From the NCBI RefSeq assembly GCF_029144185.1, contig NZ_CP110232.1:1756164-1820163 (forward strand): a stretch of DNA of 64,000 nucleotides, read 5' to 3'. Below are positions 23,344 to 38,404 of this stretch, piece by piece (position 1 is the stretch's first letter; each line of letters opens with the position of its first letter). The DNA comes from Vagococcus intermedius. Lineage in GTDB: Bacteria; Bacillota; Bacilli; Lactobacillales; Vagococcaceae. A model generated the notes under the pieces. That model saw nothing but the letters and a program-made list of their open reading frames with translations, was not told the DNA's origin and ran no database searches. A program made the translations under genes and the position numbers.

Positions 23344-25111
23344 AATCATCATAATCCCCAGATTCATCAAACTGACTATGATAAAGCTTTTCATAAAAAC
23401 CTCCGGCAGCTAGCAAACTATCGTGAGTTCCTTGTTCAATGATCTCGCCATCTTTCATCACTAAAATCAAATCAGCTTCTCTAATTGTTGATAATCGATG
23501 AGCAATGACAAAACTCGTACGACCTTCCATTACTTTAGCCATTGCTTTTTGAATCAAGGCTTCTAAGCGTGTATCCACAGAACTAGTGGCTTCATCTAAA
23601 ATTAAAATTTTAGGATCTGAAATAACTGCTCGAGCAATTGTTAATAATTGTTTTTGGCCTAAGGAAACGTTTGAAGCTTCCTCGTCAATCTCCATCTCAT
23701 ATCCTTTTGGCATTGTTTTAATAAAATGGTGAACATTGGCTGTTTTAGCGGCATCTACCACTTCATATTCCGTTGCATCAAGCTTACCGAAACGAATATT
23801 TTCAGCAATCGTATCATGATACAGCCACGCATCTTGCAAAACCATTCCAAATAATGACCGGACATCGCTTCGATTCATTGCTTTAGTATCAATATTATCA
23901 ATTTTAATTGAACCGGAGGTGACATCATAAAATCGCATTAATAAATTAATCAGTGTTGTTTTCCCAGCTCCAGTTGGGCCAACAATGGCTACAGTTTGAC
24001 CTGGTAATACTTCAAAGCTTAAGTTTTTAATTAAAGGACGCTCTGATGAATAACTAAATGCCACATTTTCAAATGTAACCCGACCTAAAATAGTTGTTGG
24101 TAAAGAGACGTCCTTTTCATTTTCAGTCGCTTCCACTTCATCTAAAATATCAAATATTCTAACAGTCGAAGCTGAGGCGCTTTGTAACACAGCAGCCAAT
24201 TGTGTGACCTGTCCCATTGGCTGATTAACTTGCCAAACGTACTGAATCATTGCTTGTAAATTACCAACTGTTAAACTCCCTGAAATAATCAAAAAGCTAC
24301 CACTAATGGCCATTGCTATGTAAGCTAAGTAAGCGGTCATCGATACAAGTGGCATCAACAACCCTGAAATCCAAGCCGATTTAAAGCCATAATTAGATAA
24401 GCGGTGGCTGACTTCTTTAAATCCATCTAAAGTCTCTTTTTCACGACCATATAATTTTAGCACATTAAATCCTGTCATATGTTCTGTTACATATCCATTT
24501 AGATCACCTAGTGCATCTTGTTGCTTTTGAAAATATTGTTGAGACTTGGAAACAATAATTTTTGAAATGATTAATGAGGTTGGAATCATTAATATTCCCA
24601 TCAATGCTAATTTGACATTTAAAATAAACATCATACTAACTGCTGTGACGATTCCTAAAAAGGCTGTGATGATGGCTATAAAACTTTGTTGCATCGCGTT
24701 GCTAACAGCATCCACATCATTTGTAACCCTAGATAAGACTTCTCCTTGTTGATGAGTATCAAAATAAGAAACCGGCAAGCGATTGATTTTTTGACTAATA
24801 TCACGACGCAAATCCTTCATTGAGCGTTGGACGACACGTGTCATTAGATAAACAGCTGAATATTGCATACCACTATATAACACCGTAATCAATAAAATAA
24901 AACCAATCATTTTTAAAACATATCCAAAATTCAACTGCTCGCCACGAGCCAAATTATTAGAAATTTCTGTAATCGGTAAGCCTGTAACATAAGGTAAAAT
25001 AGCATTGACTCCTACTGCACCCACAGTTAGTAAGACTGCTAGACTAAACATACCACGATAGTGTCTAAGATAACTCCATAATCGCTTTAAAGAGGTAAGA
25101 GACTGTTTCAT
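23342..25111 (-). CDS. efrB: Heterodimeric multidrug ABC exporter, subunit B
   Basis: 589 residues: six-helix exporter domain (1-320) and ATPase domain. Walker A GPTGAGKTT (378-386), Walker B with catalytic E507 (ILILDEATSSVD) and H538 are intact, but the signature is VSLGQ (482-486) rather than LSGGQ. The partner shows the reverse pattern, so the pair forms one canonical and one degenerate ATP site as in LmrCD, BmrCD and EfrAB. Length, order and overlap match EfrAB of E. faecalis, which exports dyes and fluoroquinolones; substrate here is inferred. Its start overlaps the stop of efrA by four bases. Confidence 0.88.
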   Translation of the reverse strand: MKQSLTSLKRLWSYLRHYRGMFSLAVLLTVGAVGVNAILPYVTGLPITEISNNLARGEQLNFGYVLKMIGFILLITVLYSGMQYSAVYLMTRVVQRSMKDLRRDISQKINRLPVSYFDTHQQGEVLSRVTNDVDAVSNAMQQSFIAIITAFLGIVTAVSMMFILNVKLALMGILMIPTSLIISKIIVSKSQQYFQKQQDALGDLNGYVTEHMTGFNVLKLYGREKETLDGFKEVSHRLSNYGFKSAWISGLLMPLVSMTAYLAYIAMAISGSFLIISGSLTVGNLQAMIQYVWQVNQPMGQVTQLAAVLQSASASTVRIFDILDEVEATENEKDVSLPTTILGRVTFENVAFSYSSERPLIKNLSFEVLPGQTVAIVGPTGAGKTTLINLLMRFYDVTSGSIKIDNIDTKAMNRSDVRSLFGMVLQDAWLYHDTIAENIRFGKLDATEYEVVDAAKTANVHHFIKTMPKGYEMEIDEEASNVSLGQKQLLTIARAVISDPKILILDEATSSVDTRLEALIQKAMAKVMEGRTSFVIAHRLSTIREADLILVMKDGEIIEQGTHDSLLAAGGFYEKLYHSQFDESGDYDD

Positions 25112-26838
25112 GCTAATTCCTCCTTTGATAATTGTGATGCAGCAATATCATAATAAATACCACAATTTTTTAATAATTCTTGATGGGTACCGCTACCAAC
25201 TACATCACCTTCATTTAAAACAATAATTTTATCAGCATGCATAATTGTACTAATTCTTTGAGCAACAATTAAAACTGTCGCATCTGTTGTTTCCTTTTTA
25301 AGGCGTTGACGTAATGTGGCATCTGTCTTGTAATCAAGTGCTGAAAAACTATCATCGAAGACATAAATATCAGGTCGCCTAATAATGGCTCTAGCTATTG
25401 CTAAGCGCTGTTTTTGTCCACCTGAGAAGTTACTTCCCCCCTCTGATAACATCTCGTCAAAGCCATGCTCTTTTTGAGAAATAAACTCAGTAGCTTGCGC
25501 GACCTCTGCCGCATATAGAAAATCTTCCTCAGTCGCGTCAAGTTTACCAAATCGTAGATTATCTCTAATCGTGCCTGTAAATAACAATGCTTTTTGAGGT
25601 ATATAGCCAATCTTAGCTCTTAAATCTGCTAATTTATAGTCTTTAACATTGACACCATCAATCAATACTTCTCCTTTAGTTGTATCATAAAATCGTGGAA
25701 TTAATTGAATTAACGTTGATTTCCCACTACCAGTACTTCCAATAAAAGCAACGGTTTCTCCTGGATTAGCAGTGAAGCTAACATCTCGAATAACTGGACT
25801 TTCTGTAGCACCAGGATAAGCGAAAGTCACATTTTTAAATTCTAAGACGCCATGTGTGCTTGTTTCAATCACGCCCTCTTCTGGTTCAACAATTGAGCTT
25901 GAAGTATCTAGAACTTCTTGGATACGTTGTGCTGAAACAGCTGCTCGTGGATACATCATAAAAACAGAAGCGAAAAGCATAAATGAAAACAGCGCATGAA
26001 AGACATATTCAATAAAAGACAGCAACTTTCCGACTTCAAGTGTCCCTAATTCAATTTGCTTTGAGCCAAACCAAATAACTAAAACCATAATAATATTAAA
26101 TAAAAAGTAAAAAGCTGGTTGCGCCGCTGCTACTAATGAAAATAATCGAGTTGAGCTACTGGCATAATTCTCATTTACTTTTTTAAAACGTTTCTCTTGA
26201 AAATCTTCATTAACAAAAGCTCTAACAACTCTAAGTCCTGATAAATTCTCTCGTAAAATCATATTTAGCTTATCTAAATTTTTCTGTTGTAATTTTGATA
26301 GAGGTTCTGAGAGTCGTGCTAAAACGATAACGCCTATTAAGAGTAAAGGAATCGCCATAAAAACAAATTTTGATAATGAGACACTTTCTCGCATAATTAA
26401 ATACAGACTTGCTGTAAACATCATGGGGGTTAAAAAACCTGTTTTTAATAACATCCCTAAAAACATCATGACTTGATAGGCATCATTTGTTGTTCTCGTA
26501 ATCAAGGATGAAACACCTAGCTTTTCATACTCTTGATGTGAAAATCCTTGCATTTTTTCAAACATATCATCACGAATGTCAATGATAATAGCAGTATTCA
26601 ATCTTGCTCCAACATATGTGAGTAAAATATGTAAGGTCAAACCAATGGCAGTAATGACTACCATCCATAAGCCCATCACCTTAACGTACTCCCAATCTTT
26701 GTTTCTTACCCCAACATCGATCATTTTAGCCAACAGAGTTGGTAGTCCTAATTCAATTAGGATAAATCCGAAAACACAAATAAAGTTGAAAAATAATAAT
26801 TTTTTCTGTCGCATGGTGTATTCCCACATCAAACGCAT
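25108..26838 (-). CDS. efrA: Heterodimeric multidrug ABC exporter, subunit A
   Basis: 576 residues with six membrane helices (1-300) and an ATPase domain. Walker A GSTGSGKST (367-375) and a canonical signature FSGGQ (471-475) are present, but the Walker B glutamate is D496 (FDDSFSALD) and the H-loop histidine is Q527 (VAQRIS). These are the hallmarks of the non-hydrolysing half of an asymmetric exporter. GGAGGAG lies just before the ATG. First gene of the efrA-efrB operon. Confidence 0.88.
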   Translation of the reverse strand: MRLMWEYTMRQKKLLFFNFICVFGFILIELGLPTLLAKMIDVGVRNKDWEYVKVMGLWMVVITAIGLTLHILLTYVGARLNTAIIIDIRDDMFEKMQGFSHQEYEKLGVSSLITRTTNDAYQVMMFLGMLLKTGFLTPMMFTASLYLIMRESVSLSKFVFMAIPLLLIGVIVLARLSEPLSKLQQKNLDKLNMILRENLSGLRVVRAFVNEDFQEKRFKKVNENYASSSTRLFSLVAAAQPAFYFLFNIIMVLVIWFGSKQIELGTLEVGKLLSFIEYVFHALFSFMLFASVFMMYPRAAVSAQRIQEVLDTSSSIVEPEEGVIETSTHGVLEFKNVTFAYPGATESPVIRDVSFTANPGETVAFIGSTGSGKSTLIQLIPRFYDTTKGEVLIDGVNVKDYKLADLRAKIGYIPQKALLFTGTIRDNLRFGKLDATEEDFLYAAEVAQATEFISQKEHGFDEMLSEGGSNFSGGQKQRLAIARAIIRRPDIYVFDDSFSALDYKTDATLRQRLKKETTDATVLIVAQRISTIMHADKIIVLNEGDVVGSGTHQELLKNCGIYYDIAASQLSKEELA

Positions 26839-27271
26839 CTAAACTCCTCCATTCTTTCCCCTCAAATGTTTAATAAAACGGGACATTATAAACTTACTTT
26901 AATATAGCATATTAATTTAAAGCATAACAAATCTTTCTATTTTATTATTCAATTTATACGGCACTCCTTCCTATACTTATCATTAAAATTATGATAAAAT
27001 TGTTTTAAATGTAACGAACACGTCTTTTTACCGAAATAATTAGTTTGACTAATACTTAGCTATTATCCCGAAATAATGTCGAGATTTCGGATCACTACTA
27101 ACGCTTAAATGTTAGTGTGAATTGATAGCAAAACAAGGTGATTTACACCTCATTTTGGTGTGTTCAAAACGCGTGCGTTACACTAAAAACAACAAACAGG
27201 TGAAAGTTCTTTTCGCCTTTTTATAAAACTAACAAATATAACGCATTAACATGCATAAAGGAGATTATCAG
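26839..27271 (+). promoter_or_regulatory. Structured leader with terminator upstream of rpoY-rnjA
   Basis: About 430 bases between divergent operons. The half next to rpoY is rich in hairpins: ATTAG/CTAAT (27039-27053); CCGAAAT/ATTTCGG (27068-27074 with 27084-27090); ACTAAC/GTTAGT (27097-27102 with 27111-27116); CACCT (27146-27150), which can pair with AGGTG at 27136-27140, or as ACACC with GGTGT at 27157-27161. It ends in an intrinsic terminator at 27198-27222, 50 bases before rpoY. A ten-base repeat CCGAAATAAT occurs at 27031 and 27068. Promoter elements are not clear; TATGAT at 26990 is a candidate -10. I infer transcription attenuation. Confidence 0.55.
27198..27222 (+). terminator. Intrinsic terminator inside the rpoY-rnjA leader
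   Basis: AGGTGAAA (27198-27205) pairs with TTTCGCCT (27211-27218; one G-T pair) and is followed by TTTT. Its position ahead of the first gene suggests attenuation rather than operon end; no gene lies upstream on this strand. Confidence 0.7.
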
Positions 27272-27487
27272 ATGATTTACAAAGTCTATTATCAAGAAAC
27301 AAAAGTAAGAAACCCAAAAAGAGAGCAAACCCAATCATTATACGTCGAGGCGGATACAGAAGTAGATGCACGTGTTCTTGTTGAAGAAAATACCCCATAC
27401 AACATTGAGTTGGTACAACTTTTAGAAGGTAACCACTTAGAATATGAAAAGGAAAATGCTGATTTTTCTTTAACGGAGTTCAAGTAA
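27272..27487 (+). CDS. rpoY: RNA polymerase epsilon subunit
   Basis: A 71-residue protein of the YkzG/RpoY family, a small auxiliary RNA polymerase subunit of Firmicutes ([20 protein letters not shown]...). The ATG at 27272 has AAAGGAGA eight bases upstream; the in-frame ATG at 27251 precedes the ribosome binding site and is rejected. One base separates its stop from the rnjA start, the widely conserved rpoY-rnjA arrangement. Confidence 0.93.
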
Positions 27488-27488
27488 G

Positions 27489-29165
27489 ATGAAACCCAAC
27501 ATTAAAAATAATGAAACGGGTGTTTTTGGTATTGGCGGTTTAGGTGAAATCGGTAAAAACACATATGGGGTTCAATTCCAAGATGAAATTATCATTGTAG
27601 ATGCTGGTATTAAATTTCCAGAAGATGACCTACTAGGAATTGATTATGTTATTCCTGACTACAGCTATATTGTTCAAAACATTAAAAAAGTTAAAGCCTT
27701 AGTGATTACACATGGTCATGAAGATCATATTGGTGGTATTCCCTTCTTATTAAAACAAGCGAATGTACCAATCTATGCTGGTCCTTTAGCTTTAGCTCTT
27801 ATCAAAAATAAATTGGAAGAGCATGGTCTATTACGTGATGCTGAGCTTCATGAAATCAATGAAGATACTGTTATTAAGTTCCGTAAAACAGCTGTTAGCT
27901 TCTTCAGAACTACTCATAGTATTCCTGATGCTTTAGGTTTAGTTGTTAAAACACCTTCAGGTAATATTGTTTGTACAGGTGATTTTAAATTTGACTTTAC
28001 ACCAGTTGGTGAACCACCTAACTTGCAACGTATGGCAAAAATTGGAAATGAAGGCGTCTTATGTATGCTTTCAGATAGTACCAATGCTGAAGTTCCTGAA
28101 TTTACCAAATCAGAAAAAACAATTGGCCAATCAATTGAACGTATCTTTGAAAAAATTGAGGGACGCATTATATTTGCAACTTTTGCCTCAAATATCTTCC
28201 GTTTACAACAAACAGCCATGGCTGCCGTAAAAACAGGACGTAAAGTTGCTGTTTTTGGACGTAGTATGGAAAATGCCATTGTTAATGGTCAAAAATTAGG
28301 CTATATTAACGTGCCAGAAGATACTTTTGTTGATGCACGCCAAATTAATAGTATTCCAGCAAATGAAATGCTTATCTTATGTACGGGCTCACAAGGTGAA
28401 CCAATGGCTGCTTTAAGTCGAATTGCTAATGGTACTCATCGCCAAATTTCAATTCAACCTGGCGATACCGTTGTCTTTTCAAGTTCACCTATCCCAGGGA
28501 ATACGACGAGTGTAAACCGTGTTATTAACCGTTTATCAGAAGCCGGAGCTGAAGTTATTCATGGCAAAGTAAATAACATTCACACTTCTGGTCACGGTGG
28601 TCAACAAGAACAAAAATTAATGTTAAGTTTGATGAAGCCTAAATACTTTATGCCTGTTCATGGTGAATATCGTATGTTAAAAGTTCATACACAACTTGCT
28701 CAAGATACGGGCGTAGAAAAAGATAACTGTTTCATTTTAGGAAATGGTGATGTCTTAGCCTTAACTCCTGATAGCGCTCGTTTAGCCGGTCACTTTAACG
28801 CAGGTGATGTTTATGTAGACGGTAACGGTATTGGCGATATTGGTAATGTAGTTTTACGCGACCGCCGGATTCTTTCAGAGGAAGGTCTTGTCCTAGCTGT
28901 TGTTACGGTTAACTACAAGAAAAAACAAATCATGGCTGGCCCAGATATTTTATCACGTGGGTTTATCTATATGCGTGAATCAGGTAGCCTGATTAACCAA
29001 TGTCAACGTTTGTTAACAAAAGCTATTAACAAGGCGCTACAAGATCCTGAATGTAATGAAGCTGTCCTAAATGATGTTATTAGCAGTACCTTAGAGCCAT
29101 TTTTAATTGAAAAAACGGAAAGACATCCTATGATCTTACCAATGGTTTTAACAGCTGATAACTAA
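27489..29165 (+). CDS. rnjA: Ribonuclease J1
   Basis: 558-residue 5'-3' exo- and endoribonuclease, a main mRNA decay enzyme in Firmicutes. The metallo-beta-lactamase motif HGHEDH is at residues 75-80; beta-CASP pieces [27 protein letters not shown] and SSSPIPGN, and the late histidine segments HTSGHGG and [10 protein letters not shown], are present, then a C-terminal domain. The length and the rpoY partnership indicate J1 rather than J2. Expression may be governed by the structured leader upstream. Confidence 0.96.
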
Positions 29166-37033: not shown

Positions 37034-38215
37034 TTAGCCTTTTACAGCTAACTCTTTGTCTCCACGTTCAATGAAGAATTTAATTAGTAAGGGTGATACT
37101 AATGTTGCAATAATAATTGCAACCACAATAGCTGAATAAATACTACCTGTTACTAGATCTAAAGATTTCCCCATCTGTACAATGATTAGCGCCATTTCAC
37201 CACGTGAAACCATTCCTGCTCCAACTAACCAAGCATTATTTTTATTAATATGTGAGGCTCTAGCACTAATATAACCGCCGACCAACTTAGAAATAACTGC
37301 AGCTAATGATAATAGTACGATAAACATGGCATGTTCTTTAAAGGCTGAAAACCTAATATCCAGACCAATTGACACGAAAAATACTGGAATAAATAAAGCA
37401 TAACCAATCGTAACTACTTTATTTTCAATACGTTCTTTTGAACTATGATTAGATAAAATCAGACCCATAAAGAAAGCCCCAATTACATCACTCATACCTA
37501 ATACTTCTGATAAAACAGCAAAAGTAAAACATAAAACTAAGGCAATGGATGTTTCTCCTTCTGTTGCAACAATTCTTTTAGTCCATTTCAACAGTGGTTT
37601 TACCATATATTTTGCAAATACATAAGTTAACCCAAAGAATAATAATTTTTTACCTAAAAGATCCCAAAAGAAAGCGCCATTCAAGGCAAAATCACCTTCC
37701 ATATTGATAAATGTTGCAAAAATACTCACCAACAAGACTACTACAATATCATCCACTACTGCTGCCCCTAAAATAATTGAACCTTCTTCAGAATCGAGAC
37801 GGCGATAATCTCTCAAAACTTGGACTGAAATACTAACAGAGGTTGCACTAAAGACAATTCCTAAGAATAAAGAGCTTAGCCAAGATAAATTAAAGAGTGA
37901 TCCAACAATCGCACATAAAATTAAAGGAAAAATAATTCCTGTTACGGCAACTGATACTGAGGGTTTCATATATTTTTTCAGCAAGCCTAAATCACTTTCA
38001 AGTCCTGCTAAGAACATTAATAAAATGACTCCTATCTGTGAAAACATATGAATTAAATCTGTTGGCTGAACGATACTCAACATTGCAGGCCCTAAGATAA
38101 TCCCTACTAATAATTCTCCTATTACAGCTGGTATTCCGATTAAATTACAAAGATGTCCAGCCAATTTCGTCCCTATTAAGATTGCAATCAACGCAATCAA
38201 TAATTCTTCTAACAT
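37034..38215 (-). CDS. CPA2 family cation/proton antiporter (NapA/KefB-like)
   Basis: 393 residues, about 12-13 membrane helices. Seen are GELLVGIILGPAML, LMFLAGLESDLGLLKKY, GAAVVDDIVVVLLVS with the paired aspartates of electrogenic CPA2 antiporters, and GMVSRGEMALII. There is no C-terminal RCK domain, so it resembles NapA of Enterococcus hirae. ATG at 38215 follows AAAGGA by eight bases; the upstream start at 38239 lies before that site. It precedes arcA on the same strand but ends in its own terminator; Na+/H+ or K+/H+ exchange during alkalisation by ammonia would fit, as inference. Confidence 0.88.
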   Translation of the reverse strand: MLEELLIALIAILIGTKLAGHLCNLIGIPAVIGELLVGIILGPAMLSIVQPTDLIHMFSQIGVILLMFLAGLESDLGLLKKYMKPSVSVAVTGIIFPLILCAIVGSLFNLSWLSSLFLGIVFSATSVSISVQVLRDYRRLDSEEGSIILGAAVVDDIVVVLLVSIFATFINMEGDFALNGAFFWDLLGKKLLFFGLTYVFAKYMVKPLLKWTKRIVATEGETSIALVLCFTFAVLSEVLGMSDVIGAFFMGLILSNHSSKERIENKVVTIGYALFIPVFFVSIGLDIRFSAFKEHAMFIVLLSLAAVISKLVGGYISARASHINKNNAWLVGAGMVSRGEMALIIVQMGKSLDLVTGSIYSAIVVAIIIATLVSPLLIKFFIERGDKELAVKG

Positions 38216-38404
38216 ACATTCATTCCTTTCAAAAGACAAAAAAATAGACCACTACACTTTCCTCTTTCTTCCCGCCCTTTGAAGAAAAAACCTTGAAAGC
38301 ATAATTGCCCAACCGATAATGATATCTATTTGCCTTATTCAATTTTATAACTTCATTATGACATAAAAATCAGAAGAACTCAAAGTTTAAGCCTTTATAC
38401 AGTA

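Follow-up and report, generated by a model that had tools for sequence, protein, structure and literature searches.

A covarying leader RNA ahead of rpoY-rnjA in Vagococcus and Enterococcus, a candidate for feedback control by RNase J1

The window analysed here is a stretch of 64,000 nucleotides from the genome of Vagococcus intermedius. It encodes the epsilon subunit of RNA polymerase and ribonuclease J1 as neighboring genes, with a strong terminator 3' of rnjA (d +38, on the terminator score described below). As the initial annotation had it, no plus-strand gene lies upstream of the leader of these genes, the ABC transporter gene there being on the minus strand. We identified the following features:

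25108-26838, minus strand: divergent ABC transporter gene
26972-27000, plus strand: predicted promoter, with -35 element TATACT (26972-26977), 17-nt spacer and extended -10 element TGATAAAAT (26992-27000)
27010-27016, plus strand: outer closing helix, 5' strand TGTAACG, pairing with 27176-27182 in the MFE fold
27068-27090, plus strand: P2 hairpin, stem CCGAAAT/ATTTCGG with conserved 9-nt loop AATGTCGAG (consensus AAAGWCGAG)
27092-27120, plus strand: P3 hairpin, TCAC.ACTAACG / TGTTAGT.GTGA
27136-27150, plus strand: P4 hairpin, AGGTG-ATTTA-CACCT
27151-27168, plus strand: conserved U-rich tail, CATTTTGGTGTGTTCAAA in the window (consensus CATTTTGTTGTGTTCAAA)
27176-27182, plus strand: outer closing helix, 3' strand CGTTACA, pairing with 27010-27016
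27198-27222, plus strand: weak intrinsic-terminator-like hairpin with a TTTT tail, from a terminator scan (hairpin 27198-27218, d = -12.2)
27243-27254, plus strand: P5, small hairpin GCAT-taac-ATGC, 3 nt before the Shine-Dalgarno sequence AAGGAG (27258-27263)
27272-27487, plus strand: rpoY, RNA polymerase epsilon subunit (Pfam PF07288, E 3.5e-31)
27489-29165, plus strand: rnjA, ribonuclease J1 (NCBIfam NF047419, RNase_J1_RnjA, 971 bits versus a cutoff of 820)

The promoter, which the initial annotation missed, follows a pattern (TATAC, 17 nt, TGnTAAAAT) found ahead of rpoY in 41/43 leaders of Enterococcaceae and Vagococcaceae, 10/10 of Carnobacteriaceae and 7/7 of Lactiplantibacillus. Because it occupies 26972-27000, the leader RNA is predicted to start near 27007 rather than at 26990, where the annotation had placed its beginning. 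The leader ends at 27168-27222, directly upstream of rpoY at 27272. All short motifs were at the positions given earlier: CACCT at 27146-27150, AGGTG at 27136-27140 and 27198-27202, GGTGT at 27157-27161, CCGAAATAAT at 27031 and 27068, ATTTCGG at 27084-27090, TTAGTGT at 27112-27118 and ACACTAA at 27180-27186.

The predicted fold of 26990-27275 has an energy of -68 kcal/mol, versus -47.2 +/- 4.3 in dinucleotide shuffles (z -4.8; 0/200 as good), and the leader is therefore a real candidate for a folded RNA. The outer closing helix and P5 were absent from the initial annotation. The outer helix (27010-27016/27176-27182) encloses the whole element and was seen within the genus Vagococcus only, where a G-C pair of the window is A-U, changed on both sides, in V. 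fessus and V. proximus (TATAAC/GTTATA). A hairpin adjoining the Shine-Dalgarno sequence, commonly three bases away, is present in 28/43 leaders versus 27% in shuffled sequence; its stems are unrelated in sequence among leaders (e.g., CTGC/GCAG, GCATAG/CTATGC, GTACC/GGTAC). A long-range closing helix between the 5' region and the tail (P1) is strong in the window itself (0/200 shuffles) and in some relatives, and was rejected as a family-wide feature (partner-swap z -0.7, dinucleotide-shuffle mean z -0.4). A linker helix (P1c; GCTATTA/TGATAGC in the window) is not conserved either (swap z +0.3).

The core of the element was defined by comparison. Using rpoY to fetch upstream regions, we collected them for 80 loci from named genomes and for the whole of the same family (29 genomes). 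Three local hairpins are visible in a MAFFT alignment of 33 diverse leaders, which was not fitted to structure. In this alignment 85.4% of cells pair versus 71.8% when shuffled, with both-sided changes in 93 cells versus 34 and a covariation score of 0.463 versus 0.222 (structures slid along the alignment reach at most 0.209). A set of 85 model-aligned matches, which leans towards the structure, has both-sided changes at 17 of the 18 pairs across P2, P3 and P4, and scores 0.519, compared with 0.206 after shuffling and no more than 0.211 when structures are slid. Specifically, in these model-aligned matches P2 has both-sided changes at 7/7 pairs (96.8% of cells paired) and P4 at 4/5 pairs (90.6%); P3, whose sequence is variable among relatives, has them at all 6 modelled pairs. 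A partner-swap test, in which arms of different species are paired with each other, serves as an independent check and gives z values of -13.4 for P2, -14.9 for P3 and -8.9 for P4. The initial annotation proposed a structured leader of rpoY-rnjA, to be checked for covariation in Vagococcus and Enterococcus; the proposal is borne out, as P2, P3 and P4 covary in rpoY upstream regions of the two genera. Of the two copies of CCGAAATAAT offered as partners of ATTTCGG, the one at 27068 forms the covarying P2 (CCGAAAT/ATTTCGG). Among the partners suggested for CACCT, AGGTG at 27136 forms the covarying P4, whereas AGGTG at 27198, in the arm of the terminator-like hairpin, has no counterpart in relatives.

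Unpaired stretches are also conserved. P4 is followed by a conserved ATTTTGtTGTG, and the tail consensus may also be given as CATTTTGTTGTG (CATTTTGGTGTG in the window). Within it, TTT at 27154-27156 and G at 27162 are essentially invariant across 43 non-redundant leaders. In the E. faecium relatives L034, L040, L055 and L064, CAAARCGAGG (P2 5' arm and loop) is complementary to CCTCGTTTTG (P4 3' arm and tail) over ~10 bases by eye; this could be a pseudoknot or an alternative fold, although its statistical support is marginal. Pairing of the P2 5' arm with the P4 3' arm and tail gives a swap z of -3.0; it is at best suggestive because the negative control reaches -2.3.

A first covariance model (R1) included the window leader in its seed alignment, and we therefore built a second (R2) from 30 sequences that left out the window's genus altogether. 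Run on the entire 2.3 Mb genome, R2 finds the leader as its only significant match (67.9 bits, E 2.3e-8; the next has E 2.6). R1 yields 82 matches in 395 Lactobacillales genomes, one per genome and in Vagococcaceae and Enterococcaceae only, and R2 matches in 399 Bacilli genomes are restricted to the same two families; sampling at the order and class levels was even rather than complete, and strict filters lose weak matches. Neither model has a significant match outside these families, whose identity was taken from named loci of Vagococcus, Enterococcus and relatives. In 30/30 fetched matches rpoY lies just downstream, at 60-250 nt. Upstream of rpoY in L125, L128, L130, L131 and L140, genomes of the same family, no copy is recognisable, and the element can thus be lost. 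In Enterococcus devriesei and E. viikkiensis (L078, L081; 2687-2980), P3 and P4 are set apart by ~125 additional bases, and the part formed by P4 and the tail is therefore separable from P2-P3. In E. canintestini and E. dispar (L065, L067; about 2714-2960) a large insertion apparently lies inside P4.

The Rfam search proposed in the initial annotation was run, and no family matches the leader: at gathering and permissive thresholds (E up to 10) there are only chance matches in the window leader, and no family matches the leaders of 18 relatives. We thus rejected known Rfam families (T-box, riboswitches, ribosomal-protein leaders), none scoring above its curated gathering cut-off. A metabolite riboswitch, with an aptamer at several pathway genes, was also rejected, the element having a single gene context and one copy per genome. 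A nucleotide search with the leader returns short weak pieces only, because the sequence diverges too fast. Overall, the covariation and distribution argue that the leader is very probably a conserved cis-regulatory RNA of the rpoY-rnjA transcript.

How such an RNA might act was first framed as attenuation, in which some signal would decide whether the transcript terminates or is read through, the stop being either 27198-27222 or P4. With no gene upstream, a terminator here can act only on the leader transcript. A simple terminator-like rule calls both 27198-27218 and P4, and finds a site in 33/43 leaders of Enterococcaceae and Vagococcaceae, mostly P4, versus 0.05 per shuffled leader. We also scored hairpins by energy per length and U-tail (d-score, after d'Aubenton Carafa), with the formula calibrated on the gene ends of this window, where other hairpins fall below -50 and most clear terminators score +3 to +46. 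At d -12, the distal hairpin lies beneath nearly all window terminators and above the non-terminators, and P4 scores -53. P4 fits the simple rule, but across relatives its median d is -46, with none above 0; it is therefore not of the terminator class, and was rejected as a true terminator. The conserved tail, moreover, keeps G residues within its U-run. Where the window has its distal hairpin, V. fessus and V. proximus carry other T-tailed hairpins downstream of P4, also weak (d -16 and -25), whereas Enterococcus leaders have no counterpart of the distal terminator. The alternative pairings needed for a switch fail the swap test, except for the marginal one between the P2 5' arm and the P4 3' arm. 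TTAGTGT, which had been suggested to pair at long range with ACACTAA, is the 3' arm of the covarying P3, so this pairing would destroy a covarying helix.

The intrinsic terminator annotated at 27198-27222 thus has the expected shape, but is weak (d -12) and absent from Enterococcus. An attenuator architecture as the core of the element is not supported by the comparison, the terminator being weak and nearly lineage-confined and the switch pairings not conserved. We consider an attenuator unlikely. Some transcripts may end at 27222 in this species, but by the comparison among relatives termination there is not what the element has been conserved for. Beyond these two families sites are only scattered, and a terminator-type attenuator as a general feature ahead of rpoY was rejected. 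Two genomes of the Lactobacillales family f9 (L193, L195) show, about 37 nt before rpoY, a long hairpin with a run of seven T behind it, which as a terminator candidate looks stronger than that at 27198-27222.

Two further accounts would place the function in a product of the leader. The first is control by a leader peptide, with P2 lying within a short ORF such as ATGAAGCAAAGTCGAGGC in E. moraviensis. Many species have an ATG, GTG or TTG at the foot of P2, which in some opens a frame of 15-20 codons, but the E. faecium, E. avium and E. gallinarum groups have no start codon there, nor does the window site. Early stops occur elsewhere, and changes of 1-2 nt in loop length shift the frame. With neither start codon nor frame conserved, a peptide within P2 was rejected, and we regard control of this kind as extremely improbable. 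In the second, the leader (about 27007-27222) would be released as a trans-acting small RNA and rpoY-rnjA expressed by read-through. A small RNA would fit a compactly folded leader with a promoter of its own, unpaired stretches that are conserved and, in this species, a terminator-like 3' end. However, the element is linked to rpoY at 60-250 nt wherever inspected, Enterococcus lacks a separate terminator, and between the leader and rpoY no promoter-like site was seen by eye, the sole scan match overlapping the start codon. Together these make a small RNA highly unlikely.

In most relatives the 5' end of the leader carries a terminal hairpin followed by a box, CGG..GAA or CGG..AAA, nearly always 32-41 bases behind the -10 element. 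Hairpin and box occur in 29/41 leaders of Enterococcaceae and Vagococcaceae, 10/10 of Carnobacteriaceae and 7/7 of Lactiplantibacillus versus 4-9% of shuffled sequences, counts in which members of one genus are not independent. They are absent in the window and in the other leaders of its genus that were scanned, and the box is read as an ancestral feature lost or degraded in this genus. The rpoY-rnjA leaders of Carnobacteriaceae and Lactiplantibacillus, which are uncatalogued, resemble the one studied here in their promoter pattern and share with the relatives in Enterococcaceae and Vagococcaceae the 5' hairpin and then the CGG box at equal distance. Unlike the leader studied here, they lack the P2-P3-P4 module (R1 E 0.1 or worse). 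The leader thus seems to combine an older 5' module with a younger P2-P3-P4 module. In Carnobacteriaceae (L181-L189, L191, L194) the rpoY leaders are 230-306 nt long and have an almost fixed 5' part, a hairpin GTTGTG..CACAAC followed by GTTCGGGAAAA; this is probably another structured leader.

Gram-positive bacteria rely on RNase J1 as their main 5' exonuclease, an enzyme that prefers accessible 5' ends. Our preferred reading, to which we give a probability of roughly 0.45, is that the leader is a dedicated cis-regulatory element that adjusts the operon to its own product after transcription start. The control would match operon expression to the level of that product. Free RNase J1, or a decay complex containing it, would recognise or attack the leader, and the 5'-near hairpin and P5 beside the Shine-Dalgarno sequence would govern how readily decay extends into the coding region. 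Partial premature termination may come on top in the lineage of the window, from the weak terminator downstream of the element. With one operon and one copy per genome, we infer that a regulator from that operon is likelier than a common metabolite. The leader is significant once per genome, and at rpoY wherever inspected, as in RNase-feedback leaders. Feedback by RNase J1 is plausible from this gene linkage and single copy, and as a statement about rnjA itself it remains tentative, somewhat short of an even chance. Counting against the feedback explanation, the long-range pairings that would form a switch are not conserved, and the element has no recognisable copy in some genomes of the same family. 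A fuller version, in which an autoregulatory RNA would sense the activity of RNase J1 or epsilon through an ancient 5' module, with P2-P3-P4 added in Enterococcaceae and Vagococcaceae, is rather doubtful.

The hairpin beside the Shine-Dalgarno sequence and the 5' hairpin could merely stabilise the mRNA. On this account the leader would be a constitutive mRNA stabiliser or translation leader, protecting against 5' decay and keeping the ribosome site open with no response to a signal. It is favoured by a hairpin that directly adjoins the Shine-Dalgarno sequence and by the 5'-terminal hairpin of most relatives, but leaves unexplained the conserved unpaired P2 loop and tail, which resemble recognition sites. 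We hold it to be improbable, on a par with attenuation; these two are the main rivals of feedback by RNase J1, the preferred reading.

Potentially comparable systems are known for other decay enzymes. Feedback of RNase E is described as running via its own 5' UTR (PMC10989929). The E. coli rne 5' UTR is, like the element studied here, a structured leader of a major RNA-decay enzyme, found at that gene only; its sequence and enzyme are unrelated, and control there is by cleavage by RNase E itself, whereas feedback here is a proposal. In B. subtilis, RNase Y is autoregulated by cleavage of its 5' UTR and then by RNase J1 (PMC10303841). The rny leader likewise belongs to a Gram-positive decay RNase, with a processed 5' UTR on which RNase J1 stops near the ribosome site (PMC10303841), but the gene is different, control lies mostly within the coding sequence, and a conserved folded element is not part of the description (PMC10303841). 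Autoregulatory leaders of ribosomal proteins (L20, L10, L13 and others in Rfam) are autogenous structured leaders of one operon. Here the autogenous part is a proposal, no Rfam model matches, and the product is a nuclease rather than a ribosomal protein.

An RNA map of E. faecalis and E. faecium notes many long 5' UTRs that may harbour undiscovered elements (PMC7724050). In the open-access literature (subscription papers and supplementary tables being outside its scope) we found no description of an rnjA leader and no experiment on this one, and how the level of RNase J1 is set is not described there. This literature covered B. subtilis rny and suppressors of RNase Y, RNA maps and Grad-seq of E. 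faecalis and E. faecium, RNase J2 of E. faecalis, S. agalactiae, S. pneumoniae, a survey of premature terminators, TERMITe and a review of S. aureus RNases. If real, the feedback would make this leader the first conserved element for cis feedback on an RNase J-type 5' exonuclease. The leader, which is not in Rfam, couples an RNA polymerase subunit with an RNA-degrading enzyme, and offers a defined, testable element in Vagococcus and Enterococcus, present for instance in relatives of E. faecalis and E. faecium.

Elsewhere in the window we identified a Na+ riboswitch (RF03071, 43.8 bits) at 38266-38314 on the minus strand. It precedes a gene for a CPA2-type sodium/proton exchanger (37034-38215, minus strand).
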